Notes under the pieces: model-generated
Database searches by the model: none
Seen by the model: the letters and a program-made list of their open reading frames with translations, nothing else
What the model was told of the DNA's origin: nothing
Shown: piece after piece, positions 4,703 to 33,004 of the stretch
Layout of the letters: each line of letters begins with the position of its first letter
Position numbering within the stretch: position 1 is the stretch's first letter
Program-made: the position numbers and the translations under genes
Origin: Leptolyngbya sp. Heron Island J
Lineage (GTDB): Bacteria; Cyanobacteriota; Cyanobacteriia; Phormidesmidales; Phormidesmidaceae
Direction: 5' to 3'
Assembly: GCF_000482245.1 (NCBI RefSeq)
Contig: NZ_AWNH01000014.1
Coordinates: forward strand, 39,091-103,090
DNA: 64,000 nt

Positions 4703-5263
4703 TCATTCACATTCACGTAGCTCATCCCCTTCAGCCATCCACCATTCCATAAATAGACCTCTGCATTGGAGACATATCAGCCTGTCCAATAGAGATTGGA
4801 TGCCTAGGTGAGTCAGTGGGTAAGTCGCTCCCAGTTTTTCAGGCACCAGGGAAACATCAGGCTTAATCTCAGCGACAAAGCCATGCAAACGCTGATTTGA
4901 AAAAGAGCTATTAATGGGCCAGCCGGTTTGGTTAATCGGGCTCAGACAAGATAGCCCTGAATCAGCAACACCTAGTTCCCGTTCGAGAATAGTTGTTGCG
5001 GCACATTGAAGACTTTGACCGTCAGGACATCGACCGCCTGGAAAATCCCAGGTAGATTGACCTACTCCAGGGCGATAGACCGGTGGCGGCAGCAGCAGGT
5101 GTTGCCGATGCACAGGTAATACAATGACCGAGTCTGCTTTTTCAACACGCCAATAATCTAATCGCTCACCCTGAGGTGTTTTCAGTTTTTCTCCCAGCAA
5201 GGTTAACCAACCTGTTTGCAAGGATAGAATCGTTTCTTGAAATTGCCAGGGTTGCTCGCTCAT
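4703..5263 (-). CDS. Nudix-fold protein with degenerate Nudix box
   Basis: A 186-aa protein with an N-terminal strand region and a recognisable Nudix segment (FPGGRCPDGQ followed by ILERELGV, about residues 73-98). Against the consensus GX5EX7REUXEEXGU, the first Glu is Gln, the Arg-Glu pair is Thr-Ile and the next Glu is Arg; only the last Glu and the Gly remain. Metal-dependent pyrophosphatase activity is therefore doubtful, and a binding role or divergent activity is more likely. It is transcribed away from the next gene and convergent with ilvA. Confidence 0.65.
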   Translation of the reverse strand: MSEQPWQFQETILSLQTGWLTLLGEKLKTPQGERLDYWRVEKADSVIVLPVHRQHLLLPPPVYRPGVGQSTWDFPGGRCPDGQSLQCAATTILERELGVADSGLSCLSPINQTGWPINSSFSNQRLHGFVAEIKPDVSLVPEKLGATYPLTHLGIQSLLDRLICLQCRGLFMEWWMAEGDELRECE

Positions 5264-5533
5264 AAACCAGCTATATACACAGCTTGGAGATTATTATTAC
5301 ACCATATGATTAAAAAGTTATATTTTTGTACTTAAACAGTGTCGTCAGGCTCTCTGACCGCCATGCTATTTACCCATAATCGTTTTTAGTTGAAGACGTT
5401 AATCGTCTCTCTAGATCCTTACAGATATTACAAAGTATATTTTGAACGCATTTTATATAATAAATTGCTCATATAATGAGATAATTAATTAATACTTTAC
5501 TAGGCTAATAGTAGATACGAATAGAAGGTAGTT

Positions 5534-8453: not shown

Positions 8454-9536
8454 TTATGCGGCGATAGCTGGTGCTGTCAGAGCGACAGGCTGTGGATCTC
8501 CAGCTGCCAAATCCAGTGGGAAGTTGTGGGCATTGCGCTCATGGATGACTTCAATGCCTAAATTGGCTCGGTTCAGAACATCTGCCCAGGTGTTAATCAC
8601 GCGACCTTCACTGTCCAAGATTGACTGATTAAAGTTAAAGCCATTGAGGTTAAAAGCCATGGAGCTAATACCAAGGGCTGCGAACCAAATACCAACAACG
8701 GGCCAGGCGGCTAATAAGAAGTGTAGAGACCGGCTGTTATTGAAAGAGGCATATTGAAAGATCAGTCGACCAAAGTAGCCATGGGCTGCAACTAGGTTAT
8801 AGGTTTCTTCTTCCTGGCCAAAGCGGTAGCCCGCATTTAAGGATTCAACTTCGGTGGTTTCTCTTACTAGAGACGATGTCACCAATGAACCATGCATGGC
8901 CGAGAACAAGGCTCCACCAAATACACCAATTACCCCAAGCATATGGAAAGGATGCATGAGAATATTATGCTCTGCCGTAAACACGATCATAAAGTTGAAC
9001 GTGCCGGAAACACCTAGCATCAGGCCATCAGAAAAACTTCCTTGACCGATGGGATAAACCAATAAAACAGAAGTGGCAGCCGCAACAGGAGCAGAATAGG
9101 CTACGGCAATCCAGGGTCTCATCCCCAAGCGATAGCTCAACTCCCACTGACGCCCCATGTAGGCATAGATAGCGATTAGAAAGTGAAAGATGATCATCTG
9201 GTAAGGACCACCATTGTAGAGCCACTCATCAAGGCTGGCTGCTTCCCACATGGGATAAAAGTGGAGACCAATGGCATTGGATGAGGGCACAACCGTGGCG
9301 GTGATCATGTTGTTGCCAGAAAGCAAGGAGCCGCTAATAGGCTCTCGAATACCGTCCATATCCACAGGCGGTGCGGCAACCATTGCCAGGATAAATACAA
9401 TCGTAGCGACTAGGGCAGTCGGAATTAAAAGAGTACCAAACCAGCCAACATATAACCGGTTTTCAGTGCTGGTAACCCATGCGCAAAAGCGCTCCCACAA
9501 ACTGACCTGTTGATATTTCTGAAGTGTATTAGTCAT
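8454..9536 (-). CDS. psbA: Photosystem II D1 protein, micro-oxic D1' isoform
   Basis: A 360-aa D1 with five membrane helices. Water-oxidation ligands are intact: Asp170, Glu189, His332, Glu333, His337, Asp342 and Ala344, the last followed by a 16-residue cleavable tail. Tyr161, His190, His198, His215, His272 and Ser264 are present. Three positions diagnose the D1' isoform: Ala80 for Gly (ITATVVP), Leu158 for Phe (VLLVYP) and Ala286 for Thr (IWFAALG). D1' genes in other cyanobacteria are induced at low oxygen. The gene ends in a hairpin and has a regulatory element 47 bp upstream of the start that matches one at the rogue psbA at 22 of 25 positions. Confidence 0.95.
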
Positions 9537-9583: not shown

Positions 9584-9608
9584 CTTAATCACCATATAAC
9601 TATGTAGC
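9584..9608 (-). promoter_or_regulatory. Island element upstream of psbA (D1')
   Basis: Read towards psbA, this 25-nt site contains GCTACATAGTT followed by ATATGGTGATTAAG. It matches the site at 19345-19369 before the second psbA at 22 of 25 positions and in the same orientation relative to the gene. The rest of 9609-9881 holds no recognisable gene. Confidence 0.65.
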
Positions 9609-9881
9609 GAAATAATTGTCAAGCTTCTCTTCTTCTATTTCTCAGTTAATCGTGACGCTTTCGATGCACTTTGCAAGAGTGCCACAGTAGGTGACGGGAG
9701 AGATTCGGAGCATGACTCAATCTCAGTTACAAGATTCTGTGACGTTGTTTTGGCAACACATTTGAACTTCTGAGATATATTCGGAGGCAAAGTAACAGGC
9801 TGATTCTCTCTCCCCAGGAATCGCTCAGAATATCACAGCTGAGCAGGTTCGCAATCGCTTAAAAGTCTTTAGATAAGAGCG

Positions 9882-11086: not shown

Positions 11087-11695
11087 TTATTCACTCAGTG
11101 CAGTTTGAACCGATTGCTGCACTGAATCGGGAATAAATACCGCATACATACCGCGTAAATCATCTACCTTGAAGTTATATGCCAAATCTTGGGGGTAGTT
11201 ATCCTTGACAAACTGAGGACGATTACCTTTGAGCCCATGACAGGCTAAACAGCTTGCTTCCACAGTGATGCGACGATAATAGCGAGTGCCAGTCTGGTCA
11301 TTCAAAGTCTCTTTCTCCCAAAATCCCATTAACTCTGGGGATTGCTCAAATGTAGACAGGGCATTAGTAGCTGCAAGACTATCGGGTTTATGGGCTGGAT
11401 TACGATACTTTTTGGCAAGTTGCTTCACCTGCCAACCGTTCTCTTTGCTGAGTTGCATGGCTTTCATACCGACGGGTTTACACACTTGCTTCATGGTCTC
11501 AGCCGTCGGTGGTTCTGCAGCATCTTCCAGATAAGCCGCTAGCCCGCTACGCATAGCATCTAAATTTTCAATCTCCTGAACAGCTTTGGCAAGTTGGGCT
11601 GGTTCCGGCTGAGCCTGGGCCATCGCTGGGTAGCCGAGAATAACAAGCCCGATTAGCGAGAAGGCCAGCATAGTCTTGGATAGAATTCTGAACAT
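11087..11695 (-). CDS. Tll0287-like (DUF3365) c-type haem protein
   Basis: A 202-aa protein with a signal peptide (cleavage after AMAQA) and a single CLACH haem c motif at about residues 148-152, inside a Tll0287/DUF3365 sensor-like domain. Such proteins bind haem in the lumen or periplasm and are suspected redox or ligand sensors. AGGAGG lies 8 nt before the ATG, so this start is firm even though it overlaps the 3' part of arsR by 128 bp in another frame. In this context the haem could sense sulfide or redox state, or take part in electron transfer; that is inference. Confidence 0.8.
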   Translation of the reverse strand: MFRILSKTMLAFSLIGLVILGYPAMAQAQPEPAQLAKAVQEIENLDAMRSGLAAYLEDAAEPPTAETMKQVCKPVGMKAMQLSKENGWQVKQLAKKYRNPAHKPDSLAATNALSTFEQSPELMGFWEKETLNDQTGTRYYRRITVEASCLACHGLKGNRPQFVKDNYPQDLAYNFKVDDLRGMYAVFIPDSVQQSVQTALSE

Positions 11696-12071
11696 GAATA
11701 TCGCCTCCTGTATGGGAAGGTAAACTTAATTGTTCGATCTCTAACAGAGATTTGGCACAGAGGGACAATAAATCGTTATCGATGATCCGGTAATAGCGAC
11801 AGTTACCGACTCGTCGACAGGCAACAACACCTGAACATTTAAGCAACTGCAGGTGTTTAGAGACATTAGCTTGGTTTAAACGAGTTCGCTTACAAATCTC
11901 AGTTACATTGCGTTCTTGATTACAAATAGCAGAGAGAATTTGTAACCGACTGGGATCGCTTAATAGCTTAAATCGCTGTGCTATTTGCTTAAAGCGCTTT
12001 TCTAACATGACTGGACAGATGTCCACCGGATCAGGTTGAGTCTCCATAGGCTGAGTATCAACAAAGGCCAA
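11568..12071 (-). CDS. ArsR-family repressor, candidate sulfide/persulfide sensor
   Basis: A 167-aa protein whose first 115 residues are a standard ArsR/SmtB winged helix (LLSDPSRLQIL, recognition helix NQANVSKHLQLL, wing VACRRVGNCRYYRI). Cysteines at 50 and 105 flank the fold roughly where SqrR/BigR-type persulfide sensors keep theirs, although Cys50 is three residues later than the usual first cysteine. The start lies 19 bp after sqr, so the two are co-transcribed. ArsR repressors govern sulfide oxidation genes in several bacteria. The 52-residue tail runs into the next gene and is unlike the family, suggesting a lost stop codon. Confidence 0.8.
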   Translation of the reverse strand: MAFVDTQPMETQPDPVDICPVMLEKRFKQIAQRFKLLSDPSRLQILSAICNQERNVTEICKRTRLNQANVSKHLQLLKCSGVVACRRVGNCRYYRIIDNDLLSLCAKSLLEIEQLSLPSHTGGDIHVQNSIQDYAGLLANRACYSRLPSDGPGSAGTSPTCQSCSGD

Positions 12072-12090: not shown

Positions 12091-13395
12091 TTAGGGGCTA
12101 ACCATCGTTTGTTCATAGTTGATGGTGGTTGGCTTCAGCATCTGTAGACCAAAGAGAATGCGTAATCCCAAGTTCTCAAACCAGGGCATGCCAACTCCTG
12201 TACGCATTTTGACCATGAAATATTCCTCAAAGGCTGCTTTTACCCAGACCACCCATGGGCCACGCACTGCATAGGATCGCTTCCGCTTGCCGGTTTCTGG
12301 ATCAGGCAGAACGGGGGCGGCAATATAGGCAATACCAGTATCGCCGAACTCTGCAAAACACAAAGCCTCTAAGGTTGGAACTTTAAGAGAATCTTGAATC
12401 GCTCCCAGCTCAACAGCAATGTTGTGGGCAACTGCGGTGGCCATGGCTTCTGCCATTTGGCCACTTTTGGGCAACCCGATGGGAATACGGGTTTGGTCAG
12501 GCTGCGCCAGTTTAATACTGACACCTGCGGCATAAATGTTGGGAAAGTCTGGATGACGTTGGGTCGGCAATACCGGAATAAACCCTTTAGCGTCTCCCAA
12601 ACCAGGCACTGCTTGAATAAATTTGGCTCCACGAAAGGCGGGCAAGATCATCGAGTATTTGAATGGTAACTGTTGCCCGTCGTCCAGAGTAACGGTCTGT
12701 TCATCCACAGCGGTAATAGCTGTGTTCTCAATGATCGTAATATCTCGTTCGTGCATCAAGTTGGCAGTCAGTTCTCTCGCATTTTTCACATTAGAGACGC
12801 CTAGATGCCCCGCATAGGGCTCTGGGGTGACATAGGTAATGGTTACTTGATCACGCAATCCTCGACGACGTAATTCGTGATCGGCCATCAGAGCAAATTC
12901 GTAGGCGGGGCCAAAACAGCCCGCCCCCGGAGCTGCGCCTATAACTATCGGTCCTGGATTGTTGAGAAAATCAAGCCAGGCTTGATGGGCCTCAAGGGCA
13001 TGGTCGGGGGTGCAAACAGACTGGGTGTAGCCTCCGTGGGGTCCTAATCCGGGAACTTGATCAAATGCCAGGGAAGCACCGGTTGCGATCGCAACATAAT
13101 CATACTCAATTGTTCTCTCCCCCTCGACTGTAATAGAGCGAGCCTGAGGATCAAGGGCTGTCACCCTACCAGGCACCCAATCTAAATGATGACGCTGTGC
13201 CAGCCGCGATAGATCCAACTGCACATGCTCCAGCGGCTTCAGTCCCAAAGCCACCTGGATCAGCCCTGGAATAAAGGTAAATTTGGGCTCGCTGGATATT
13301 AGCGTCACCCGATGCTTGCTTGGTAGCAAGTGACGTAACTCATAGGCTGCAGGCAGCCCTGCCAGACCGGCCCCAATCACAACAACATTTGCCAT
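12091..13395 (-). CDS. sqr: Sulfide:quinone oxidoreductase
   Basis: A 434-aa FAD enzyme of the thylakoid or plasma membrane surface that oxidises sulfide to persulfide/polysulfide and reduces plastoquinone. It opens with the FAD motif VVIGAGLAGLP. All three catalytic cysteines are present: Cys128 (SVCTPDHA), Cys160 (GAGCFGPAYEF) and Cys346 (EALCFAEFGD). The pattern closely resembles the Acidithiobacillus ferrooxidans enzyme. The C-terminal amphipathic part (FEEYFMVKM, ILFGLQML) fits monotopic membrane binding. It heads a minus-strand run containing arsR, the haem protein, DUF3122 and DUF2202. In cyanobacteria this enzyme feeds electrons to photosystem I during anoxygenic photosynthesis. Confidence 0.93.
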   Translation of the reverse strand: MANVVVIGAGLAGLPAAYELRHLLPSKHRVTLISSEPKFTFIPGLIQVALGLKPLEHVQLDLSRLAQRHHLDWVPGRVTALDPQARSITVEGERTIEYDYVAIATGASLAFDQVPGLGPHGGYTQSVCTPDHALEAHQAWLDFLNNPGPIVIGAAPGAGCFGPAYEFALMADHELRRRGLRDQVTITYVTPEPYAGHLGVSNVKNARELTANLMHERDITIIENTAITAVDEQTVTLDDGQQLPFKYSMILPAFRGAKFIQAVPGLGDAKGFIPVLPTQRHPDFPNIYAAGVSIKLAQPDQTRIPIGLPKSGQMAEAMATAVAHNIAVELGAIQDSLKVPTLEALCFAEFGDTGIAYIAAPVLPDPETGKRKRSYAVRGPWVVWVKAAFEEYFMVKMRTGVGMPWFENLGLRILFGLQMLKPTTINYEQTMVSP

Positions 13396-13481
13396 ACTTC
13401 AATCTTATCCTCCGTGTTCTAAATCAAACACCTGATCAGCCACAGACTCAGATTTCTGGCAGACAGGCATTCATTACTTAT

Positions 13482-13500
13482 CTACTAAATAGTTATATAG
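13482..13500 (+). promoter_or_regulatory. Island element, sqr-petC intergenic, site 1
   Basis: CTACTAAATAGTTATATAG, continuing into ATATTATG, matches the psbA elements at about 14 of 17 positions over its TAGTT..ATTA core. It lies 87 bp upstream of sqr and points towards petC, so it could serve either direction. Confidence 0.5.
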
Positions 13501-13641
13501 ATATTATGTAGCAAATGCTATTCTGTCAACTGAATCATCTGTTTTAGCGTTCCATGATTGGCCCAAGTTATAGAGCGTTGGGCGCTTCAATCAAACCAGA
13601 GAAGTCATAAAGTACTTGATAAATTAATTTACAATTCCATT

Positions 13642-13661
13642 ACTACTTAGTTATACTGTTA
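13642..13661 (+). promoter_or_regulatory. Island element, sqr-petC intergenic, site 2
   Basis: CTACTTAGTTATACTGTTAA shares CTACTTAGTTRTA with the rogue psbA element and has the same orientation relative to the downstream gene. No other feature is evident in the 474-bp gap between sqr and petC. Confidence 0.5.
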
Positions 13662-13869: not shown

Positions 13870-14403
13870 ATGGAAAACGCAATTCCTTATGAGGCACCGT
13901 CCTTATCGCGACGGCAACTACTCAACTTTTTAACGGGGGCAACAGTTGCTGCAACCGCTGGTTCAGCCCTCTACCCGGTCGCCAAATTTTTCATCCCACC
14001 TCGGGAGGTATCTGAGGGAGGAGGAATTCTCGCAAAAGATAAACTAGGCAATCCGATTCCAGCCAGTCAAATCCTTGCTAATCCGCCTGGAACTCGTGCT
14101 TTGATTGCAGGACTGGCCAGCGAACCGACGTATTTAATCGTCCAAGACGATGGCTCTCTAGGGGCTAGAGGTATTGTTGATAACTGTACTCACCTGGGTT
14201 GCACCTTCCCCTGGAATCCCGTAGATCAGCAGTTTCAATGTCCCTGCCATGGGTCTCTTTACGATCCGGAGGGTAACGTTGTGCGTGGGCCTGCACCTCT
14301 CCCCCTGAAGATAGTTCATGTGGTGGTTAAGGATGATGCCATCTGGATCTACCCCTGGAACGAGACTGACCCCCGTACTGATGAACAACCCTGGTGGGTG
14401 TGA
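13870..14403 (+). CDS. petC: Cytochrome b6f Rieske iron-sulfur protein, accessory copy
   Basis: A 177-aa PetC with a twin-arginine-like membrane anchor (SRRQLLNFL and a hydrophobic stretch to residue 40) and the 2Fe-2S ligands CTHLGC and CPCHGS. It carries electrons from plastoquinol to cytochrome f/plastocyanin. No petA is next to it, unlike the main petCA operon, so this is probably an alternative isoform. It shares a promoter region with sqr and precedes the get3d-like gene by 21 bp. An isoform tuned to sulfide-reduced plastoquinone is a reasonable inference. Confidence 0.9.
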   Translation: MENAIPYEAPSLSRRQLLNFLTGATVAATAGSALYPVAKFFIPPREVSEGGGILAKDKLGNPIPASQILANPPGTRALIAGLASEPTYLIVQDDGSLGARGIVDNCTHLGCTFPWNPVDQQFQCPCHGSLYDPEGNVVRGPAPLPLKIVHVVVKDDAIWIYPWNETDPRTDEQPWWV

Positions 14404-16234: not shown

Positions 16235-16296
16235 TTATTGGTAACAATAATGGCAAGAAAAGCAGAGTTTGACAGCTTGCGCATATAACTAATTGA

Positions 16297-16315
16297 TTAT
16301 ATAGTGTATCTGATT
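16297..16315 (+). promoter_or_regulatory. Island element upstream of rhodanese
   Basis: TTATATAGTGTATCTGATT resembles the psbA elements, matching 9 of 10 over TTATATGGTG. CATATAACTA at 16282-16291 also recalls them. It lies 55 bp before the rhodanese start. Confidence 0.4.
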
Positions 16316-16360: not shown

Positions 16361-16753
16361 ATGGCCGTAGCTGAACAGCTGCATGGGTTAATATTCGAAA
16401 CATTCACTACTCATGAGATACAGGCACGATTTGAACGCCATGAGATTGTTCTGATCGATGTACGTACCCCTCAGGAATATGCATTTGAGCATATTCCTGG
16501 AGCAATGCTGTTTCCCATGGCCTCCTTTGACCCCAGGAAACTACCAATACAAGTGGAGAAGCCCATTGTGTTGTATTGTGGGTCAGGCAGACGATCGCGG
16601 CTGATTGCTGAAAAATGTATTCGTGCAGGGATTGATAGAATTGCCCATATGGCAGGGGGAATTAATGCCTGGAAAGCAGATGGTTTGGCTTATATCTCCA
16701 TTGATCCAGCAACGGGTGGATATGTGCACAATCTCAGCACTAGAGAGAACTAA
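16361..16753 (+). CDS. Single-domain rhodanese (sulfurtransferase)
   Basis: A 130-aa rhodanese domain with the active-site loop CGSGRRSRL (Cys at about residue 71), the LIDVRTPQEY strand and the GAMLFPM segment. Rhodaneses move sulfane sulfur between persulfides and acceptors such as glutathione, cyanide or sulfite. With sqr and the persulfide dioxygenase in the same island, a role handling SQR-made persulfide is likely. GGAG lies 10 nt before the ATG. The gene stands alone between usp and the convergent ADO gene. Confidence 0.88.
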   Translation: MAVAEQLHGLIFETFTTHEIQARFERHEIVLIDVRTPQEYAFEHIPGAMLFPMASFDPRKLPIQVEKPIVLYCGSGRRSRLIAEKCIRAGIDRIAHMAGGINAWKADGLAYISIDPATGGYVHNLSTREN

Positions 16754-16835: not shown

Positions 16836-17540
16836 TTAGCGTTGGTCAGAGCTGGTCAGACCATGACTAGCCATGCGTAAAATCTCACGGGTGTTAAAGC
16901 CAATTTCCTTGAGTGCCTCACTATAGTTCACCAAAAAGGCTTCTATTAGTGTTTGCTTATCCATGCCTACGGTTTGCAGATCCGCTTCAACCTGATTGAG
17001 CATCCGCCAGATCAGAGGAAGCACTTGGCGATTAGCAGTCTCGAGTTCTGCCTTGACTGTCTCAAAGTGTGCTTTAAGCCAAACTTCTCCGAAATTGAGA
17101 TGGTGGTACTCATCGGCAACAACTCCTTTCGTCACTTTTTGAGCAAACTCATCAGCAACCGGAATATAGACGTTGTAAGCTGAGATCGCAAAGCATTCTA
17201 TCACCAATGATTGAATCAACAAACAGGTGGCCACCTTACGGTCGGTTGCCGACGTTTGGAAAGCCTGACATAGGTCAGCAAAAAACTGGTTGGCAAATGC
17301 CAAATCAGGAATAACATTCAAATTTCGGCCACAGGCTTCAAAACTTTTACGATGACGACCTTCCATTTTGCCCAGTCGAGTTAATTCTTCGGACTGCTCT
17401 GGCAACAGATCTGCCAGGCATAAAAAATTGTCGTAAGCTGCCTGCTCTCCTTCAATGACGATGCCATTAATACGAGTAAAGGCATCGCGGTAGGTATCGC
17501 TATAGAAATCAAGCGTTTGATCGGCTACAGAATGAGACAT
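16836..17540 (-). CDS. Aldehyde-deformylating oxygenase (alkane synthase)
   Basis: A 234-aa ferritin-like di-iron protein matching cyanobacterial ADO in length and ligands: Glu in VIEGEQ, Glu/His in KMEGRH, Glu in LVIECFA and Glu/His in ADEYHH. ADO turns fatty aldehydes into alkanes plus formate using O2 and reductant. The usual partner acyl-ACP reductase is not adjacent, which suggests an extra copy; ligand residues are conserved, so it should be active. An island-type element lies about 190 bp upstream. An O2-using alkane enzyme in a sulfide/low-oxygen island is unexpected. Confidence 0.85.
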
Positions 17541-19246: not shown

Positions 19247-19344
19247 TGACCTTGTTAATGGAATCTTAGCTCCTCTTCGCTGGGGTTCCATTGACTCAAA
19301 TCGCTGCCGGATATCTCGAAAACAATCGACTTATTGACTAAATA

Positions 19345-19369
19345 GCTACTTAGTTGTATAGTGATTAAG
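19345..19369 (+). promoter_or_regulatory. Island element upstream of rogue psbA
   Basis: The 25-nt site contains GCTACTTAGTT then GTATAGTGATTAAG and matches the D1' psbA site at 22 of 25 positions. ACTAAATAG lies just before it, as at the sqr-petC site. The distance to the psbA start is 204 bp, implying a long leader or a second promoter. Confidence 0.65.
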
Positions 19370-19573: not shown

Positions 19574-20683
19574 ATGAGTACATTAATAGAATATAAGCGA
19601 CCATCTGCCCTTGATCGTCCTAGCCTATGGGAACAATTTTCTGAGTGGGTCACGAGCACACAAAACCGTTTTTATATTGGCTGGTTTGGTGTGTTGATGA
19701 TTCCCACCCTGATGGTTGCAACCATGGTGTTTGCGATCGCACTGATCTCAGCCCCACCCGTTGACTTAGATGGCATTCGTGAACCTGTCTTGGGATCAAT
19801 TCTGAGTGGTAACAATCTGATTTCTGCCGCAGTTGTGCCAACTTCAGCCGCCATTGGCCTTCATTTTTATCCCCTATGGCAAGCCAGTTCGGTGGCTGAG
19901 TGGCTCTATAATGGCGGCCCGTACCAGCTAATTGTGTTTCACTTTTTAATCGGGATCTGGTGCTATCTCGGTCGCCAATGGGAATTGAGCTATCGTCTGG
20001 GCATGCGTCCCTGGATTGCCGTGGCCTTTTCTGCTCCTGTTGCAGCTGCAACCGCTGTGTTGTTGGTTTATCCCATGGGGCAGGGTAGTTTCTCAGAGGG
20101 GATGCCCTTAGGAGTTTCCGGTACTTTCCACTTCATGTTAGCGCTACAGGCTCAGCATAACGTCTTGATGCATCCACTTCACATGCTGGGAGTGACTGGC
20201 ATCTTGGGTGGCGCTCTCCTCAGTTCTCTCCATGGCTCCCTAGTGACCGCCAGTTTAGTCAGAGAAACGTCTGAAGCAGAGTCCACCAACGTTGGTTATC
20301 GCTTTGGTCAACAGGAAGCAACCTATAATCTACTCGCCAGTCATGCTGGCTATCTGGGACGGTTGCTCATTCCTGGCACCGCCATGCGCAATAGCCGCTC
20401 GGTTCATTTTCTGTTAGCCGCTTTACCCACCATCGGCATCTGGTTTGCGGCCTTGGGCATTAGCACTATGGCTTTTAACTTAAATGGCTTTAACTTTAAT
20501 CAGTCCATATTAGACAGCCAGGGGCGAGTTATTCCCAGCTATGCCGATCTGATTAACCGAGCAACCCTGGGGATTCAATCCATGCATGCTCCCAATGCCC
20601 ACCACTTTCCTGAGTTATTAGCGAATGGAGAGGCAACACCTGTAGCTCTAGAGATGACATCTGCTCTCACAGCCAACAGCTAA
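19574..20683 (+). CDS. psbA: Divergent 'rogue' photosystem II D1 protein lacking most Mn-cluster ligands
   Basis: A 369-aa D1 with a 5-residue longer N-terminus and one insertion near D1 position 253. Using standard D1 numbering, Mn4CaO5 ligands are changed: Asp170 is Glu, Glu189 is Gln, Glu333 is Ala and Asp342 is Leu; His332 and His337 remain. Tyr161, His190, His198, His215 and His272 are kept, so pigment and iron sites can form. Ser264 of the QB pocket is Ala and the flanking FQYASF segment is rewritten. This is the rogue/sentinel D1 class, expected to assemble a PSII that cannot split water. ChlF is the alternative. GGAGG precedes the ATG. Confidence 0.93.
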
Positions 20684-20770: not shown

Positions 20771-21157
20771 ATGGTCTCCGCATCACCCCCTAAGCCAACT
20801 ATTATTGACCTGTCCCCAGAAGACTTTGTTCAATCTGCTGAAGTCTCGCAATTGATCGATGTCAGGAGTCGGCTTGAATACAATCTTTTTCATGCTCCTG
20901 ATGCCATTAATCTGAGCCTACCGCGCATTCTGATGGCTCAGGTGCCGCTATTACGCCACCTGGTACTGCCCCAATGGTTTTGGGAACTTCCCAGAGATGC
21001 ACCTCTCGCGGTTATTTGTCTAACAGCTCACCGCAGTCCCATGGCCGCTCAGATTTTGGCCAAACTGGGCTTTAGCCAAGTGTTTAATATCACGGGCGGC
21101 ATGATGGCCTGGCAAAAAGTAGGTTTGCCCACCCACCGCGATCGCTTGAAAGCGTAA
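20771..21157 (+). CDS. Rhodanese-domain sulfurtransferase
   Basis: A 128-aa single rhodanese domain with LIDVRSRLEY, an active-site Cys in VICLTAHRSP (about residue 83), and the C-terminal FNITGGMMAWQ motif. The loop differs from the first rhodanese (CGSGRRSR), so acceptors may differ. It starts 88 bp after the rogue psbA and is followed at 49 bp by a transporter gene. It heads a four-gene run of rhodanese, BASS-type transporter, METTL7-like methyltransferase and DsrE protein, all plausible in sulfur handling. Confidence 0.85.
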   Translation: MVSASPPKPTIIDLSPEDFVQSAEVSQLIDVRSRLEYNLFHAPDAINLSLPRILMAQVPLLRHLVLPQWFWELPRDAPLAVICLTAHRSPMAAQILAKLGFSQVFNITGGMMAWQKVGLPTHRDRLKA

Positions 21158-21205: not shown

Positions 21206-22204
21206 GTGTGGAAGGTATTAGGGTTCATCCAGAAAAATTTAGTCTGGTCTGTTCCTGTATTTATGATCGCGGGTCTGATCTTTGGTGCTGTCGCTAATCC
21301 GACTCCTCTGACAGCCTTGATTATTCCTCTGACTTTTCTCATGGTTTACCCCATGATGATTAATTTGCAAATTCAGAAGGTGCTATCGGGAGGAGACTAT
21401 AAGGTCCAATTGCTCACCCAGCTGATTAATTTTGCGGTGATTCCGTTCTTTGCCTTTGGCATGGGAAGGCTATTTTTTGCGGACCAACCCCTGGTGGCCC
21501 TGGGGCTTTTGTTGGCCTCCCTGTTACCCACCAGCGGCATGACCATTTCCTGGACAGGCTTTGCCAAGGGCAATATTAGTGCGGCCATTAAGATGACGGT
21601 CATTGGATTGATTTTGGGCTCAATTGCCACACCCTTTTATGCCAAGTGGTTAATGGGGGCAGTGGTGGAGATTCCGTTGGCTAGTATTTTTAAGCAAATT
21701 ATTATCATCGTTTTCTTACCCATGGTTTTGGGGTTTGTCACCCGGATCACACTGATTCAAATTGTTGGAGCAGATAAATATCAGAAAAACCTTAAGCAGA
21801 AATTCCCCGCTTTTTCCACATTGGGTGTTTTAGGGATCGTTTTTGTCGCAATGGCCCTGAAAGCCAAAGATATTATTGCCAATCCCCTAGTACTGCTTTC
21901 GTTTTTGATTCCCCTGGCGATCTTATATGTGGGGAATTTTCTCTTCAGCACACTCATCGGTAAGTTCTTCTTTAAGCGGGGAGATGCGATCGCACTAGTC
22001 TACGGTACTGTCATGCGTAACCTATCAATTGCATTAGCCATTGCCATGACCGCCTTTGGCAAAGAACAAGGATCTGAAATTGCCCTGATTATCGCCATGG
22101 CCTACATCATTCAGGTACAGGCAGCAGCCTGGTACGTTCGCTTTAGCGACAGAATTTTTGGCCCCGTTCCAGACTCCCAATCCACAATGCAACAATCAGC
22201 TTAG
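21206..22204 (+). CDS. BASS/ACR3-superfamily membrane transporter
   Basis: A 332-aa protein with about ten hydrophobic helices and conserved segments LLPTSGMTISWTGFAKGN and VYGTVMRNLSIALAIA, typical of the bile acid:Na+ symporter/arsenite permease superfamily. It has no cysteine, whereas true ACR3 arsenite exporters depend on one, so arsenite is an unlikely substrate. The start is GTG at 21206 with AAGGAG 10 nt before. Its place between a rhodanese and a methyltransferase suggests a sulfur-containing or organic anion. Substrate unknown. Confidence 0.8.
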   Translation: MWKVLGFIQKNLVWSVPVFMIAGLIFGAVANPTPLTALIIPLTFLMVYPMMINLQIQKVLSGGDYKVQLLTQLINFAVIPFFAFGMGRLFFADQPLVALGLLLASLLPTSGMTISWTGFAKGNISAAIKMTVIGLILGSIATPFYAKWLMGAVVEIPLASIFKQIIIIVFLPMVLGFVTRITLIQIVGADKYQKNLKQKFPAFSTLGVLGIVFVAMALKAKDIIANPLVLLSFLIPLAILYVGNFLFSTLIGKFFFKRGDAIALVYGTVMRNLSIALAIAMTAFGKEQGSEIALIIAMAYIIQVQAAAWYVRFSDRIFGPVPDSQSTMQQSA

Positions 22205-22219
22205 CCAACACCAAATACC

Positions 22220-22921
22220 ATGCAATTTTCTCTCCTTTCTCAACTACAAAAGCGCTTGATGGCCTGGGGTATGGCAAAAGCAACGGCGGGCGATCTACGG
22301 GCGATCAAAGTAACAGGCTGTGAGCACCATGCCAATATGGGCGATCTCAAGCAGGCGCTTCTGAGTAATCTGCACGGTCATGTTCTAGAAATTGGTCCTG
22401 GGACCGGAGCGAATCTCAGCTATTACTCGACAGACATTCATTGGCTGGGTGTTGAACCGAACCGGTTTATGCATTCTTATCTACAAGAGGAGGCTAAACG
22501 ACAGGGGTTGCAACAGGTTGAACTCCATGAAGGTACTGCCGAGAACTTACCCGCCAAGAGCAATACCATTGATACGGTGGTCAGTACCCATGTGCTCTGT
22601 TCAGTGAATCACTTAGAGCAGGCTATGGAGGAAATCCACCGGGTTCTTAAACCCGGTGGGACATTTATTTTCCTCGAACATGTCGCTGCCAAATCGAATA
22701 CCTGGTCCCGTCACCTTCAAGATACGATTGCCCCTGCTTGGAAAACTTTGTTTGATAACTGTCATCCCAATCGTGAAATTTGGAAAGTCTTAGACGAAGC
22801 AGGGTTTGTCCCCATGGACTATGACCATTTTCAAATTCCATTTCCGATTGTTGGTCCTCATATTGCCGGCATAGCCACCAAACAGTTAGCCCCTGTAGGC
22901 AATGCCACAGTAACCCTGTGA
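22220..22921 (+). CDS. METTL7/TMT1-like SAM methyltransferase, candidate thiol/sulfide S-methyltransferase
   Basis: A 233-aa class I methyltransferase with motif I LEIGPGTGANLSYY, HVLCSVNHLEQ, RVLKPGGTFIFLEHV and a C-terminal GPHIAGIATK. From memory these features align well with human METTL7A/B, which methylate hydrogen sulfide and small thiols; the shared LCSV, LEHVA, WK and VGPHI.G elements are unusual for generic methyltransferases. An N-terminal amphipathic helix (LLSQLQKRLMAWGMAKAT) could dock to membrane. Position 15 bp after the transporter and before dsrE in a sulfide island supports a sulfur substrate. The general fold is certain; the substrate is inferred. Confidence 0.8.
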   Translation: MQFSLLSQLQKRLMAWGMAKATAGDLRAIKVTGCEHHANMGDLKQALLSNLHGHVLEIGPGTGANLSYYSTDIHWLGVEPNRFMHSYLQEEAKRQGLQQVELHEGTAENLPAKSNTIDTVVSTHVLCSVNHLEQAMEEIHRVLKPGGTFIFLEHVAAKSNTWSRHLQDTIAPAWKTLFDNCHPNREIWKVLDEAGFVPMDYDHFQIPFPIVGPHIAGIATKQLAPVGNATVTL

Positions 22922-22954: not shown

Positions 22955-23323
22955 ATGGCGGCTACTACCAGAGATGGTCTATTTATTCACATTAGTCGAG
23001 GTGCAGAAAATCCTCAACGGATTTTGATGGCCCTGACATTAGCTGAAATGATGGCTGAGGATGAAGATGTCCTGATATTCTTTGATATCAAGGGAGTTGC
23101 AATTCCTCTCAAAGGCTCTAAGCCGATTGAATTTCGAGAGTTTGAATCCACCCAAACCTTACTTCCCAAGCTCATTGAAAAAGGCATACATATGTGTGTT
23201 TGTCCCATGTGTTTGAAAGTGGCTGGCCACAAGCCTGACGATCTGCTAGAGGGGGTTGAGCTCGCTGAGAAGCATACCTTCTTCAACTTTACTCAGGGGC
23301 GAATTTTGTCTTTAAACTACTGA
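22955..23323 (+). CDS. DsrE-family sulfur-relay protein
   Basis: A 122-aa DsrE/TusD-like protein with the cysteine cluster MCVCPMC at about residues 82-88 and the family's N-terminal GLFIHIS...ALTLAEMM segment. DsrE-like proteins carry persulfide sulfur on cysteine between enzymes or act as small peroxiredoxin-like subunits. It is the last gene of the run begun by the rhodanese and converges on feoB with only 33 bp between stops. A partner of the rhodaneses in passing on SQR-made sulfur is plausible. Confidence 0.82.
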   Translation: MAATTRDGLFIHISRGAENPQRILMALTLAEMMAEDEDVLIFFDIKGVAIPLKGSKPIEFREFESTQTLLPKLIEKGIHMCVCPMCLKVAGHKPDDLLEGVELAEKHTFFNFTQGRILSLNY

Positions 23324-26059: not shown

Positions 26060-26842
26060 CTATCGCTTGATCAGAACAAAAATTGCGACAGCGAGAACAA
26101 AATAGCCAAATCCCTTTTGTAATTGCTTGGCATCAATCAATCGAGTCAGATAGGAGCCTGAAATTGTGCCAGTGCTGGCCGCTAATGTAAAGGAGGTGAC
26201 TAAAGCCCAATCCACATTCACCTGGTTTAAGTAGCCCAGAAACCCTGTCGCTGACTTGGCGGCAATAATTAACAGTGAGGTGCCGATGGCTTCTTTCATG
26301 GGAATGCCGCCCAGTAATACTAAGGCGGGGATAATCATGAACCCACCCCCCACACCAACAAATCCAGTGAGCACCCCCACACCGATACCTTCTACAGGTA
26401 TCAAGAGCCAATGATGGCCATGGTCTTTTTCTATAGCATTATCAATAGACATTCCAGCATGGGCTAAAGCCGATTTCGAATGGTTCTTGCGAATCATAAA
26501 AATACTCGCAATCACCATGACCAGGCCAAAACAAACTAGCTGAAAAGTCCCCGTAACAAACGGTAAGCCTGCAATCCGGGCTCCCATATAGGCACCGAGC
26601 ATAGCGGCTGGTGTAAAAATTACGGCTATCTTCAGGTTGACATTACCCTGAAGCCAGTGGGGAATGGCACCAATCAGACTGACCGTGCCGACAATCACGA
26701 GACTCATTGCGATCGCACCCTTAGACCCCAAACCCATGACATACACCAGGATAGGCACTGCCAGGATAGAACCGCCGCCACCAATCAGCCCTAAACTTAG
26801 ACCAATACAGACTGCTAAAAGATGACCAATTAACCAAATCAT
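26060..26842 (-). CDS. TauE/SafE-family sulfite/organosulfonate exporter
   Basis: A 260-aa membrane protein with about eight helices and the duplicated TauE signatures [15 protein letters not shown] and [17 protein letters not shown]. Family members export sulfite or organosulfur anions. The gene lies 33 bp after the persulfide dioxygenase, which makes sulfite, so export of the toxic product is the natural reading. A His-rich loop (KDHGHH) lies near residue 140. Confidence 0.88.
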
Positions 26843-26875
26843 TAAGCAGGAAGTTCCTTTATATCAACAGCAATA

Positions 26876-27574
26876 TCATGCTGTAACAACAACTTTTCCA
26901 CATTGCTCATTGGCGGGAACCGCTTCCATAATTCTCTTAGGATCAGGCAAGTTGAGATTATTCATAAACTGGATGAAACTGGCCCGATCTTTGCCAACGA
27001 ACCGAGGATTAAAACATTTCTCTTCGCCAATCGTAGAGACCGTCTGGCCTTTATAGTCATGGCCTGGATAAACAAGTGTCTCGTCTGGCAACGTGAACAG
27101 TCGCTGGGTCACATGGTCGTAGAGCGTACCGGCATCACCACTCTGAAAATCTGTACGCCCACAGCCGCGAATAAATAAGGCATCCCCCGTCAACACATGA
27201 GTGCCATTCACCAGATATGACATATGGCTATCAGTGTGACCATGGGTTTCAATCGCTTGAATATTAACGTTACCAACCACCAGGATCTCATCATGGTGGA
27301 GATAGCGGTTGGCACAGGCCGCATTCGCATTCTGGGGGACAACGCCTGCGCACCCAGTTAACTCTCGCAGCTTACCCGTACCTGTGATGTGGTCAGCATG
27401 GATATGGGTCTCCAAGCAATATTTCAGCACCAATTCTAATTCATTCAAGAGCCTATAATCACGTTCCACTTGCTCTAGAACTGGATCAACGAGCGCTGCC
27501 TCTCGGGTCACCAAATCTGCAATCAAATAGGTATAGGTCCAGGTTGATTGATCAAACAACTGACGAAACAACAT
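26876..27574 (-). CDS. ETHE1-type persulfide dioxygenase (metallo-beta-lactamase fold)
   Basis: A 232-aa protein with the metal motif THIHADHITG, His in ETHGHTDSHM, Asp in LTGDALFIRGCGRTDFQ and the final YPGHDYKG. The CGRTDFQ segment and short length mark the ETHE1/persulfide dioxygenase branch, a mononuclear iron enzyme that oxidises glutathione persulfide to sulfite with O2. It is the natural next step after SQR and rhodanese. It forms an operon with the TauE-type exporter and may include the upstream 24-residue peptide. Confidence 0.9.
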   Translation of the reverse strand: MLFRQLFDQSTWTYTYLIADLVTREAALVDPVLEQVERDYRLLNELELVLKYCLETHIHADHITGTGKLRELTGCAGVVPQNANAACANRYLHHDEILVVGNVNIQAIETHGHTDSHMSYLVNGTHVLTGDALFIRGCGRTDFQSGDAGTLYDHVTQRLFTLPDETLVYPGHDYKGQTVSTIGEEKCFNPRFVGKDRASFIQFMNNLNLPDPKRIMEAVPANEQCGKVVVTA

Positions 27575-27786: not shown

Positions 27787-27800
27787 ATATCACCATATAG
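27787..27800 (-). promoter_or_regulatory. Island element upstream of persulfide dioxygenase
   Basis: Plus-strand ATATCACCATATAG, followed by AATTTAATC, matches the hemF element over ATCACCATATAG. It lies 213 bp before the dioxygenase start and 79 bp before the 24-residue peptide. TTGATTTATCAA at 27753-27764 is an additional imperfect palindrome. Confidence 0.45.
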
Positions 27801-27948
27801 TAATTTAATCAAATATTAAGTATTGGATGTGGCGCAAGCGGCAAAGTATCCGAGCACGGTGCTAACAGCCATGGTATTGTCCCAGCATCGGACTTCGGGT
27901 TTGTAGATGCCCCATGGGGTTCTCGTCTTGTGCTCAGTGCCAGTGCAG

Positions 27949-29516: not shown

Positions 29517-31538
29517 TTAGGGACTGGATGCCACACTAGAAGACTTGGCTGATGGGACTGTTGACACTTGGGGATTCAGGACTATCTCATCGAATTGGCA
29601 GGTGTGAATGATCTGAGCCAGATGCTCCATTGAGCTGCCGTGTGGGCTATGGGCGACTTTCACGGAGTCAATGTCTGGCAAGGATGTGGGGTCATCCGTC
29701 AAGATCAGCAGCCGGAAAGATTGGCAGCTATTTTGTTGCTGAACCCGTTGCATAAACTCCGAGAGGGACATATCCGGCAGCGGCTCGGAGACGATGACGA
29801 CGTCAACAACGATGGAGTCTAATAATATCAGTCCTGTTTCACCGTTGGTGGCTTCACTGGCAATTTCGATGCCAGCTTGCGATCGCAATCCTTTCCGCAA
29901 AGCAATACGCGCCGCTTCATCCCCATCCACAATCACCACTTGCACATCGTCTATGGCACCGTTAGCAGACTCACTCACCTCTGCTGCTGGCGCGCCACAG
30001 GCAGAAACGTCACTCGCGAACTCAACATCTGCCAGTTTGGCCGCCTTGAGCCGAATCATATCTTCAGCAGAGAGAATCCGAGATTGATCAAAGCCCAGCT
30101 CAATCTCCGCATGCATCCCTTTACGCTTCACCCGTTTGAGATTATAGAAACGCTGATTGAGGGTGGTTTGTACAAACGCCCATAAACATCCCAACAAATA
30201 GCGTCGCTTAAACGGATCACGGGTAAACCAATATTCCAAAAACTTCCAGCCATAGAAGCGAGCATAGTTGCGCAGAACCCCCTTCAGCACCGCTTCTCGC
30301 GTCATATTGTCGGGCTTGATAATGGGCGTCACAAAGTTGTAATGAGAAAAGTCTCGCACTTCGACCTTATCTTCGAGGTCTTGAAACAGTTCTGCAAACG
30401 GCCAGGGCGTAAACATATTCCAATTGGTCATGTCTGACTTCCAGTCCCGAGCCATGCGGTAGGTTTCTTCAATAGTCTCAGGGGTTTCATTCGAGAGGCC
30501 CATAATGAACTGCACCTCCGCCACAATGCCATTGTCACGCAGTAGTTTTACCGCCCGTTTATTATCGGCAATGGTGGTTTCCTTACGAAAGACATCGAGG
30601 TTTAATTGGGCCGCTGCTTCTGTCCCCAGCGACACGTGGACCAGACCAGCTTTACGGTACAGCGGCAGTTCGGCCTCATCCCGCAAGATATCGGTCACCC
30701 GAGTATTAATGCCCCAATGAACACCCAGGTTGCGATCTATCAGTTCTTCACACAGACTGACAAAGCGAGCCTTACTGATGGTGGGCTCCTCATCGGCCAG
30801 GATGAAAAATCCTATATTGTGTTCTTTGACCAGGTGCTCAATTTCATCCACAAATAGCTTGGGCTTCCGGGCCCGGTACTTCCGCCAGAACTTCCACTGG
30901 CAGCAAAACCGACAGCGAAAAGGACAGCCCCTGGCAAAATTAGGCACGGCCACCCGCACATTTAGGGGTGTGTAGATGTATCGGTCCCAATCCAGTAAGG
31001 TCCAATCGGGGGAGAGCGTATTTAGATCACGAATCGGCGGATGGGCCGGTGTGACCACCACCTGACCGGCATCATCTAAATAGGCCAGGCCCAAAATTGA
31101 CTCACGGTCCTGAGAGTCTCGGCCCTCGGCAATGGCTCGAACTAAGTTGACGCTAATTTCTTCTCCTTCCCCCCGAATGATGTAGTCCACCCAAGGGGCT
31201 TCTTGCAACACCTCACGGTACATATAGGTGGGATGGATACCGCCCATAATTGCGATCGCATCAGGGCACACAGATTTAGCAATCCGCAGGGTGTCCTGGG
31301 ATTTATAAATCATCGGGGTGATCGCTGTGGCCATGACAATATCGGGCTGATGTTGCTGAATCAGAACAGCCAGGGCCTCATCCTCGATATAGTTGGTCAT
31401 GGCATCAATAAAGCGGATGTCATCAAAGCCCGCTTGCTTGAGAGCTCCCCCGACGTAGGGCACCCAACTAGGTGGCCAATTGCCTGCAATTTCAGCCCCA
31501 CCTGAATGGTAGTTGGGTTGAATCATAAGGATACGCAT
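29517..31538 (-). CDS. bchE: Oxygen-independent Mg-protoporphyrin IX monomethyl ester cyclase (BchE/ChlE) with C-terminal pseudo-receiver domain
   Basis: A 673-aa protein. Residues 1-520 match BchE: an N-terminal B12-binding fold opening MRILMIQPNYHSGGAEIAGN, the radical SAM cluster CPFRCRFC, and conserved FFILADEEPT, WGINTRVTDILRDEA and TPWPFAELFQ blocks. It closes ring E of chlorophyll without O2. From about residue 565 a CheY-like domain follows (VVIVDGDEAAR, DVVIVSEPLPDMS, LLILTDD). The phospho-acceptor Asp position is Ser, so it is a pseudo-receiver. Start chosen at ATG 31538 with AGGAGG 6 nt upstream. It follows hemN on the same strand. Confidence 0.92.
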   Translation of the reverse strand: MRILMIQPNYHSGGAEIAGNWPPSWVPYVGGALKQAGFDDIRFIDAMTNYIEDEALAVLIQQHQPDIVMATAITPMIYKSQDTLRIAKSVCPDAIAIMGGIHPTYMYREVLQEAPWVDYIIRGEGEEISVNLVRAIAEGRDSQDRESILGLAYLDDAGQVVVTPAHPPIRDLNTLSPDWTLLDWDRYIYTPLNVRVAVPNFARGCPFRCRFCCQWKFWRKYRARKPKLFVDEIEHLVKEHNIGFFILADEEPTISKARFVSLCEELIDRNLGVHWGINTRVTDILRDEAELPLYRKAGLVHVSLGTEAAAQLNLDVFRKETTIADNKRAVKLLRDNGIVAEVQFIMGLSNETPETIEETYRMARDWKSDMTNWNMFTPWPFAELFQDLEDKVEVRDFSHYNFVTPIIKPDNMTREAVLKGVLRNYARFYGWKFLEYWFTRDPFKRRYLLGCLWAFVQTTLNQRFYNLKRVKRKGMHAEIELGFDQSRILSAEDMIRLKAAKLADVEFASDVSACGAPAAEVSESANGAIDDVQVVIVDGDEAARIALRKGLRSQAGIEIASEATNGETGLILLDSIVVDVVIVSEPLPDMSLSEFMQRVQQQNSCQSFRLLILTDDPTSLPDIDSVKVAHSPHGSSMEHLAQIIHTCQFDEIVLNPQVSTVPSAKSSSVASSP

Positions 31539-31585
31539 ACAGGGTCCTCCTGATATCAAAAGGGTGCAGTGATTGTGAACGGCAA

Positions 31586-33004
31586 TCAAACCGACTGGGA
31601 GAATTGACGAATTTTGCGATCTCGCAAGTAGGTATCGAACACGGCGGCAATGTTGCGTACCAGCAAACGTCCAGCAGGGGTGACCTCAATATGATTCGGT
31701 GTCAGCCGCACCAGACCATCTGCAGCCAGGGTTTCTAAATCTCGACGTTCGCGCGCAAAATACGTATCAAAATCCTGCTCAAAATTGAGGTGATATTTCT
31801 CTTCAATCGCGCCTTTCGATAGCTCAAACTGACACATTAATTCCATGATCACGGCCCGTCGTAAAATGTCATCCTGGCTGAGGGCAACACCGCGTTCAAT
31901 CGGGAGTTGGTGAGTGCTAACCTGTCCCCCTGGCGCGATGGCATCATAAAATCCCTTCAGCTGTTTATGATTCTGGGTATAAACATTTTGGAACATGCTA
32001 ATGGCCGTCATGCCAAAGGCCAGCAGATCGGACTCTGGCTGGGTAGTATACCCTTGAAAGTTGCGGTGTAGCTGCCCCGTTTGTTGCGCTATGGTCAATT
32101 CATCATCTGGTTTCGCAAAATGATCCATGCCAATAAACTGATAGCCACGGTGAGTCAGCTGATCAATGGTCATGTGCAAAATATCGAGCTTTTCCGATGG
32201 AGACGGCAATGTGGCCGGATCAATATGTTTCTGCTGCACCGGTAACATGTGCGGTAAATAGGCAAAGTTAAACACCGCAATCCGGTCTGGATCTAGGGAT
32301 AGGGTTTTAGTAATAGTGTCGCTAAATGTGGCCAGGGTTTGGTAGGGCAGACCATAGATCAAGTCAACATTAACACTGTCAAAGGCCGCCTCTCGCATCC
32401 AGTCCATCACCTGGAACAGCACTTCTTCTGGCTGTAGCCGATTAATTGCCGCCTGGACCTGGGGATTAAAATCTTGGATGCCAAAGCTAATCCGATTAAA
32501 ACCAAGCTCTCGCAGCCCCAGAACATAATCGCGGCTAAGGGAGACGGGATTCACTTCAATCGAAATTTCAGCATCCTGAGCAAAGGAAAAATGCTGGTGT
32601 AATACCTGCCATAGAAGCTTTACCTGCTCCAGGGTGAGATAATTGGGAGTACCCCCACCCCAGTGGAGCTGGTTAACAACTCGGTTTGCATCCGTCCGAG
32701 CCGCAACCTGCTCAATATTGCAAATGAGAGCATCGAGATAGGCATGAGTCGCCGCCGCATTCTGGGTGACAATGGTATTACACCCACAGAAGTAGCAGGC
32801 ACTCTGGCAAAAGGGAATATGACAGTAGAGAGAAAGCGGTGTCTTTTGATAATTGCCGGTGGCAAAGGCCGCATCAACCGATCGGGCATCAAAGTTCTCT
32901 GTGAGCTCAGTCGCTGGCGGATAGCTGGTGTAGCGGGGCAGAGGCTGATTATATTTTTGAATTAAATCGGCATTAAATTCAACGGTTTGAAGCAAAGATT
33001 TCAT
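31586..33004 (-). CDS. hemN: Oxygen-independent coproporphyrinogen III oxidase
   Basis: A 472-aa radical SAM enzyme with the HemN cluster segment YCHIPFCQSACYFCGC and downstream GGGTPNYL and NRISFGIQDF motifs; length matches true HemN rather than the shorter HemW. It decarboxylates coproporphyrinogen III to protoporphyrinogen IX without O2. It lies between heme oxygenase, from which an intrinsic terminator separates it, and bchE, which starts 47 bp beyond its stop. hemN and bchE are probably co-transcribed. Confidence 0.95.
   Translation of the reverse strand: MKSLLQTVEFNADLIQKYNQPLPRYTSYPPATELTENFDARSVDAAFATGNYQKTPLSLYCHIPFCQSACYFCGCNTIVTQNAAATHAYLDALICNIEQVAARTDANRVVNQLHWGGGTPNYLTLEQVKLLWQVLHQHFSFAQDAEISIEVNPVSLSRDYVLGLRELGFNRISFGIQDFNPQVQAAINRLQPEEVLFQVMDWMREAAFDSVNVDLIYGLPYQTLATFSDTITKTLSLDPDRIAVFNFAYLPHMLPVQQKHIDPATLPSPSEKLDILHMTIDQLTHRGYQFIGMDHFAKPDDELTIAQQTGQLHRNFQGYTTQPESDLLAFGMTAISMFQNVYTQNHKQLKGFYDAIAPGGQVSTHQLPIERGVALSQDDILRRAVIMELMCQFELSKGAIEEKYHLNFEQDFDTYFARERRDLETLAADGLVRLTPNHIEVTPAGRLLVRNIAAVFDTYLRDRKIRQFSQSV

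Follow-up and report, generated by a model that had tools for sequence, protein, structure and literature searches.

A METTL7-family methyltransferase gene in a proposed cyanobacterial sulfide regulon: a candidate thiol S-methyltransferase

Members of the METTL7 family that methylate thiols and H2S have already been described from both animals and bacteria. In humans, METTL7B uses H2S and alkyl thiols as methyl acceptors (PMC7921093), and the bacterial enzymes MddH, MddM1, and MddM2, reported to have extended similarity to TMT1A/B, methylate both H2S and methanethiol (MeSH) (PMC12904073). MddM1 and MddM2 are induced by H2S and MeSH and protect against both gases; their homologs have been defined by an identity of at least 40% to a reference protein, and a plant protein 41% identical to an MddM1 showed no activity toward H2S or MeSH (PMC12904073). 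Thus, homology is no proof of the substrate of the methyltransferase described here. In Synechocystis, the ArsR-type repressor SuoR controls a type I sulfide:quinone oxidoreductase (SQR) and an arsenite transporter (PMC4307280). Our literature search found no cyanobacterial METTL7-family thiol methyltransferase, and none assigned to an SQR regulon.

Here we analyze a methyltransferase gene within a 64,000-nucleotide stretch of Leptolyngbya sp. Heron Island J DNA (the window). We propose, with a probability of roughly 60%, that it encodes a soluble METTL7/TMT1-family thiol S-methyltransferase of a sulfide-responsive cyanobacterial regulon, which would act on sulfide or a small thiol. The open reading frame spans exactly positions 22220-22921 on the forward strand, from ATG to TGA, and encodes 233 amino acids; the antisense frame contains many stops. 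Pfam annotation identifies the product only as a generic SAM methyltransferase (Methyltransf_11, 3.2e-21). The METTL7-type motifs quoted in the original prediction are all present (LEIGPGTGAN, VLCSV, LKPGGTFIFLEHV, and GPHIAG), as are the hallmarks of the class I SAM fold, namely a GxGxG motif (G59/G61/G63) and an acidic residue, E79, at the end of strand beta 2. The AlphaFold model (pLDDT 93.8) matches SAM-methyltransferase folds, and its nearest solved neighbor is phosphatidylethanolamine N-methyltransferase (8ys9; TM 0.63, 22% identity), with other SAM enzymes also matching; these model-based matches, 8ys9 included, say little more than that the protein has the common SAM fold. Neither profile search nor fold search returned a solved METTL7-type structure.

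None of the NCBIfam equivalogs passes its cut-off for this protein, with the UbiE/MenG, ArsM, PmtA, BioC, and MpqE models scoring about 40-52 bits against cut-offs of 158-390. UbiE/MenG (46-48 bits against 158-216), ArsM (NF008823; 48 against 263), and PmtA (NF045882; 47.8 against 390) were rejected on both score and tree position, MenG falling outside in the tree, and the methyl-plastoquinone methyltransferase MpqE (51.6 against 335) was excluded on the cut-off alone.

For comparison with human METTL7A and METTL7B we used manually entered sequences that were checked only at D98 and at a primer-encoded stretch printed in PMC7921093, so that small errors are possible, although not a change of family; the METTL7B so entered has a mass of 28.1 kDa against a reported 27.8 kDa (PMC7921093). 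Against these sequences, BLASTP aligned the methyltransferase with METTL7A at 37% identity over 198 residues (133 bits) and with METTL7B at 33% over 200 residues (108 bits), whereas MenG, an ArsM-like protein, and another methyltransferase from its own genome gave 32-53 bits. By this measure, the likeness to METTL7 exceeds generic SAM-fold similarity. In the alignment, all bacterial groups and both human proteins keep C127, E153-H154, C181, and R185 with little or no variation. P213-H214-I215 and G217 are also common to METTL7A/B; the P213-H214-I215 triplet occurs in the human proteins and on the methyltransferase's side of the tree and is absent from a widespread cyanobacterial paralog.

The original prediction had proposed phylogeny as a check, with clustering among menaquinone/ubiquinone or arsenite methyltransferases counting against it. 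In our 100-row tree, made by a quick method with long outgroup branches and with human rows from the manually entered sequences, METTL7A/B group with two sister cyanobacterial clades, A and B, and with Chloroflexota/Acidobacteriota homologs (SH-aLRT 93). The universal cyanobacterial paralog, MenG/UbiE, ArsM, PmtA, and YcgJ fall outside this group, the own-genome ArsM-like protein being a distant outgroup. The methyltransferase belongs to clade A (30 rows, support 99; about 30 cyanobacterial species) and hence sits with METTL7A/B, not with UbiE or ArsM, as predicted. On alignment and tree, we consider its membership in the METTL7 family secure. By eye, the first 35 residues contain no long hydrophobic stretch that could form an N-terminal membrane segment, and we therefore regard the protein as a member of the wider METTL7/TMT1 family rather than a TMT1 ortholog.

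The surroundings are also as predicted: Pfam matches and coordinates place the gene between a transporter and dsrE, with a rhodanese upstream. The genes of the island considered here are as follows.

8454-9536, reverse strand: standard psbA
11568-12071, reverse strand: ArsR-family repressor adjoining SQR, candidate sulfide sensor (NF033788 over cut-off)
12091-13395, reverse strand: SQR (match to 3sz0, E 9e-96, cysteines conserved)
13870-14403, forward strand: PetC-type Rieske protein, divergent from SQR (NF045928 over cut-off)
16361-16753: a further rhodanese
19574-20683, forward strand: psbA variant encoding a 'rogue' D1 (Mn ligands D170E, E189Q, E333A, D342L), first gene of the operon
20771-21157, forward strand: rhodanese upstream of the methyltransferase, conserved operon partner
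21206-22204, forward strand: SBF-family, Acr3-like transporter (Pfam SBF 2.8e-26; TIGR00832 acr3 81.7 bits against a cut-off of 283)
22220-22921, forward strand: METTL7-like class I SAM methyltransferase of clade A (ORF, Pfam, tree, BLASTP, alignment, model)
22955-23323, forward strand: DsrE-like sulfurtransferase (Pfam 3.1e-10)
26060-27574, reverse strand: MBL (persulfide-dioxygenase-like)-TauE pair

The rhodanese, SBF, methyltransferase, and dsrE genes share one strand and are separated by gaps of only 48, 15, and 33 bp, which suggests a single operon. Judged from its structural match and cysteines, the SQR, about 9 kb from the methyltransferase, is genuine. HemN and ArsA-like ATPase genes are also found in the island, as is an aldehyde-deformylating oxygenase gene (alkane synthesis; 16836-17540), which likewise lies near the methyltransferase in two Oscillatoriales-type genomes (L063, L064). 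The BchE protein (anaerobic Mg-protoporphyrin cyclase; 29517-31589) has an apparent C-terminal receiver domain resembling that of response regulators.

To compare promoter regions, we used a position weight matrix (PWM) trained only on the SQR/Rieske upstream regions of other genera, which resembles the palindrome ATATAACTAATTAGTTATAT. The predicted promoter and operators are listed below.

9594-9613: operator before the standard psbA (pattern and PWM)
13479-13498: operator copy 1, SQR/Rieske intergenic region (PWM)
13637-13656: operator copy 2, SQR/Rieske intergenic region (PWM)
16283-16302: best operator in the window (ATATAACTAATTGATTATAT), upstream of the rhodanese at 16361-16753
19334-19362, forward strand: predicted sigma70-like promoter TTGACT-17-TATAGT of the psbA-rhodanese-SBF-methyltransferase-dsrE operon (10/12 consensus matches)
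19340-19359: predicted SQR-type palindromic operator over the operon promoter (AAATAGCTACTTAGTTGTAT; PWM score 18.7, local P 0.0002)
27787-27806: operator before the MBL-TauE pair (PWM)

The window contains seven PWM sites scoring at least 14.5 (16283, 27787, 19340, 13479, 13637, 9594, and 5304), against 0.22 expected from local shuffles, and the pattern CTAMNTAGTTRTAT, with one mismatch allowed, occurs four times against 0.13 expected, in each case ahead of an island gene. The motif is common to the promoter regions of the methyltransferase operon, the SQR/Rieske pair, and the standard psbA. An exact-arm scan found no exact short palindromes in the promoters; the degenerate operator came from motif comparison. 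The operator at 19340 lies inside the sole 10/12 promoter match of its region, a position expected of a repressor site; taken overall, that region shows no enrichment of promoter-like sites. The strong operator at 5304-5323 precedes a NUDIX-like gene (4703-5263, reverse strand; read from the ORF), about 6 kb beyond SQR/ArsR.

In the entire 8-Mb genome, only three near-consensus operators (at most three mismatches) were found, the one at 16283 and two flanking a second SQR locus. This second locus (L175; C80:53000-67000) encodes an SQR with 75% identity to the first, together with its own ArsR and YeeE/YedE-like genes. Baaleninema and Geitlerinema BBD (L094, L100) also have operators ahead of the methyltransferase operon, with no SQR or Rieske gene nearby, and another locus (L087) has the order operator-arsR-methyltransferase-SQR; all three lie outside the PWM training set. 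Overall, operator sites were detected at 24 of 36 clade-A loci and 3 of 25 clade-B loci, with one genome counted twice, a comparison with some circularity, the PWM having been trained on SQR/Rieske promoters of clade A. As would be expected of an ArsR-controlled SQR regulon, the operator of the SQR promoters recurs at the methyltransferase operon with a local P of 0.0002, and membership of the methyltransferase in the sulfide regulon is well supported.

The neighborhood is conserved beyond the window. A genome scan for homologs yielded 80 named loci, from which we compared 33 clade-A loci outside the window's genus with 45 other homologous loci, considering flanks of up to 10 kb per side; given the relatedness of the species and the shortness of some contigs, we take the P values as indicative only. 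An extra Rieske gene lies near 16/33 clade-A genes (Fisher P 7e-8), a rhodanese near 15/33 (P 2e-7), SQR near 11/33 (P 2.5e-5), a thioredoxin-reductase-like oxidoreductase near 11/33, and psbA near 7/33, each against 0/45. NifX-like, DUF2214/DUF4079, SBF (4/33), and DsrE genes are less frequent neighbors, again with 0/45 among the other homologs, and in 12 of the 33 loci SQR, Rieske, and rhodanese are all absent from the fetched flank. The methyltransferase gene is likewise followed immediately by dsrE in L083, L086, and L098, from Calothrix elsteri, a Pleurocapsales strain, and Anabaena UHCC 0204. DsrE was rejected as an obligate partner, being absent from L075 and L092, the same-genus loci of the closest relatives, Leptolyngbya sp. 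PCC 7375 and Adonisia turfae. In a set of 386 cyanobacterial genomes, type I SQR occurs in 4 of 7 with a clade-A gene (the window's genome excluded) versus 29 of 378 others (P 0.0013), and most SQR-bearing cyanobacteria have no clade-A gene; the association between clade A and SQR is therefore real, albeit not strict in either direction. The sulfide context of the original prediction is thus strengthened, since it is kept across cyanobacterial families and the operon carries an SQR-type operator.

The 'rogue' D1, which lacks several Mn-cluster ligands, recurs in SQR/Rieske/rhodanese/methyltransferase islands (the window, L038:9709-10752, L075, L092, L077, L086, and L093), which suggests a photosystem II variant devoted to sulfidic or anoxic settings. 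On the Stanieria cyanosphaera plasmid pSTA7437.01 (L038; 194-198 kb), genes for Rieske, rogue psbA, a NifX-like protein, DUF4079, and the methyltransferase stand in a row; as this plasmid is typed as conjugative, parts of the photosynthetic electron-transport machinery are found on a mobile element. The thioredoxin-reductase-like FAD enzyme often lies directly beside the methyltransferase (L063:8291-9298, L066, L094, L100) and shows no obvious CxxC in the part read; none was found adjoining the methyltransferase in the window's genus.

Clade B has a different setting. Heavy-metal islands house its loci on Stanieria pSTA7437.03 and Nostoc pANSO36B, and MerR-type regulators are found near two others (L111, L123). 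A metal-island context was accordingly rejected as typical of the window gene, and the several clade-B loci inspected in such islands indicate that the ancestral substrate need not be sulfide. On plasmids of other phyla, METTL7-like genes often adjoin CcdA, TlpA/DsbE, or copper-binding genes (L167, L168, L170, L171, L173, L174). Thiol chemistry recurs across the family, while sulfide is specific to clade A.

Family, clade, conserved linkage, and shared operator form the basis of our proposal, in which a putative ArsR-type repressor would bind the palindrome over the operon promoter and be released by an inducer that is probably sulfide or sulfane sulfur. The rogue D1, rhodanese, SBF transporter, methyltransferase, and DsrE would then be expressed together with SQR and the alternative Rieske protein. 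The methyltransferase would transfer the SAM methyl group to sulfide or a small thiol, converting H2S to MeSH and probably on to dimethyl sulfide (DMS), and may thereby trim reactive sulfide or thiol missed by SQR, rhodanese, and DsrE. Disposing of sulfide in bulk by SAM-dependent methylation is expensive, and MeSH is a toxic compound too; both points count against this reading. The sequence and context nevertheless appear to be best explained by an enzyme that methylates H2S, MeSH, or a small thiol.

It is unlikely that the methyltransferase instead acts on another small molecule or lipid in a low-oxygen/sulfide program, such as a phospholipid, quinone, tetrapyrrole, fatty aldehyde product, or organic persulfide. 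Such a role would fit the phosphatidylethanolamine N-methyltransferase as best solved fold (8ys9, TM 0.63), the BchE, HemN, and aldehyde-deformylating oxygenase genes of the island, and the pairing of some clade-A genes with DUF2214 or DUF4079 membrane proteins. However, the 22% identity to 8ys9 reflects mainly the common fold, the PmtA, UbiE/MenG, and MpqE models score 48, 46-48, and 52 bits against cut-offs of 390, 158-216, and 335, and the recurrent partners of clade A handle sulfur.

The Acr3-like transporter and the Suo precedent make arsenic the main named rival: the enzyme could methylate arsenite or thioarsenite for the adjoining exporter, within a joint sulfide/arsenic response. The ArsA-like ATPase and the two invariant family cysteines (C127 and C181) agree with this, as does the control of both SQR and an arsenite transporter by SuoR (PMC4307280). 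We consider it rather improbable, since the ArsM model NF008823 reaches 48 of the required 263 bits, the own-genome ArsM-like protein branches far outside, the transporter scores 82 bits against the Acr3 cut-off of 283, and SBF genes accompany just 4 of the 33 clade-A loci. Least likely is an enzyme for thiol or metal-thiol stress in general that travels with a mobile island and lacks any role particular to sulfide, as the plasmid-borne clade-A copies (including that on the conjugative Stanieria plasmid) and the CcdA/TlpA thiol-disulfide, copper-binding, and heavy-metal neighbors of other METTL7-like genes might suggest, but the SQR, Rieske, and rhodanese linkage is clade-specific and the operator is shared.

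Returning to thiol methylation, a bolder version, to which we would give slightly less than even odds, is that clade A is a dedicated sulfide/MeSH S-methyltransferase of the cyanobacterial sulfide regulon, operating beside SQR and a photosynthetic apparatus with rogue D1 and alternative Rieske, so that MeSH and DMS would arise directly from H2S in cyanobacteria that turn to sulfide-tolerant or anoxygenic photosynthesis. If true, this would tie the sulfide response of cyanobacteria to the thiol-methylating METTL7/Mdd enzymes and explain the recurrent unannotated 'class I SAM-dependent methyltransferase' of SQR islands. It would also provide a genetically testable route from H2S to MeSH and DMS in cyanobacterial mats, and a source of both compounds in microbial mats that is independent of DMSP. 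The operator motif, in turn, defines a candidate sulfide regulon that includes the rogue D1 and the extra Rieske protein.

Among the known relatives, the universal cyanobacterial METTL7-like paralog (C117 in the same genome; L002) shares C127, E153-H154, C181, and R185 with the methyltransferase, but falls outside the clade with the human proteins, lacks the PHI motif, and is far more widespread. Vertebrate METTL7A/B (TMT1A/TMT1B) share the SAM fold, the LCSV, EHV, DxC..RE, and PHI.G motifs, and 37% and 33% identity, respectively. The clade-A protein differs by the lack, by sequence, of an N-terminal hydrophobic membrane segment, by E79 in place of the human D98, by an extra N-terminal insert in clade A, and by its operon and regulon context; its thiol activity is predicted from sequence. 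MddM1/MddM2 (Actinomycetota and others) and MddH (marine Proteobacteria), compared by description only, are not reported from cyanobacteria or an SQR regulon in PMC12904073 and related papers, but are likewise bacterial SAM enzymes with TMT1A/B-like similarity and fold. The Synechocystis Suo system (SuoS SQR, SuoR, SuoC, and SuoT), as described in PMC4307280, has the ArsR-type control of a type I SQR at a shared divergent promoter that is predicted for the present locus, together with a transporter; that description names neither a methyltransferase nor a rogue D1, Rieske, or DsrE protein.
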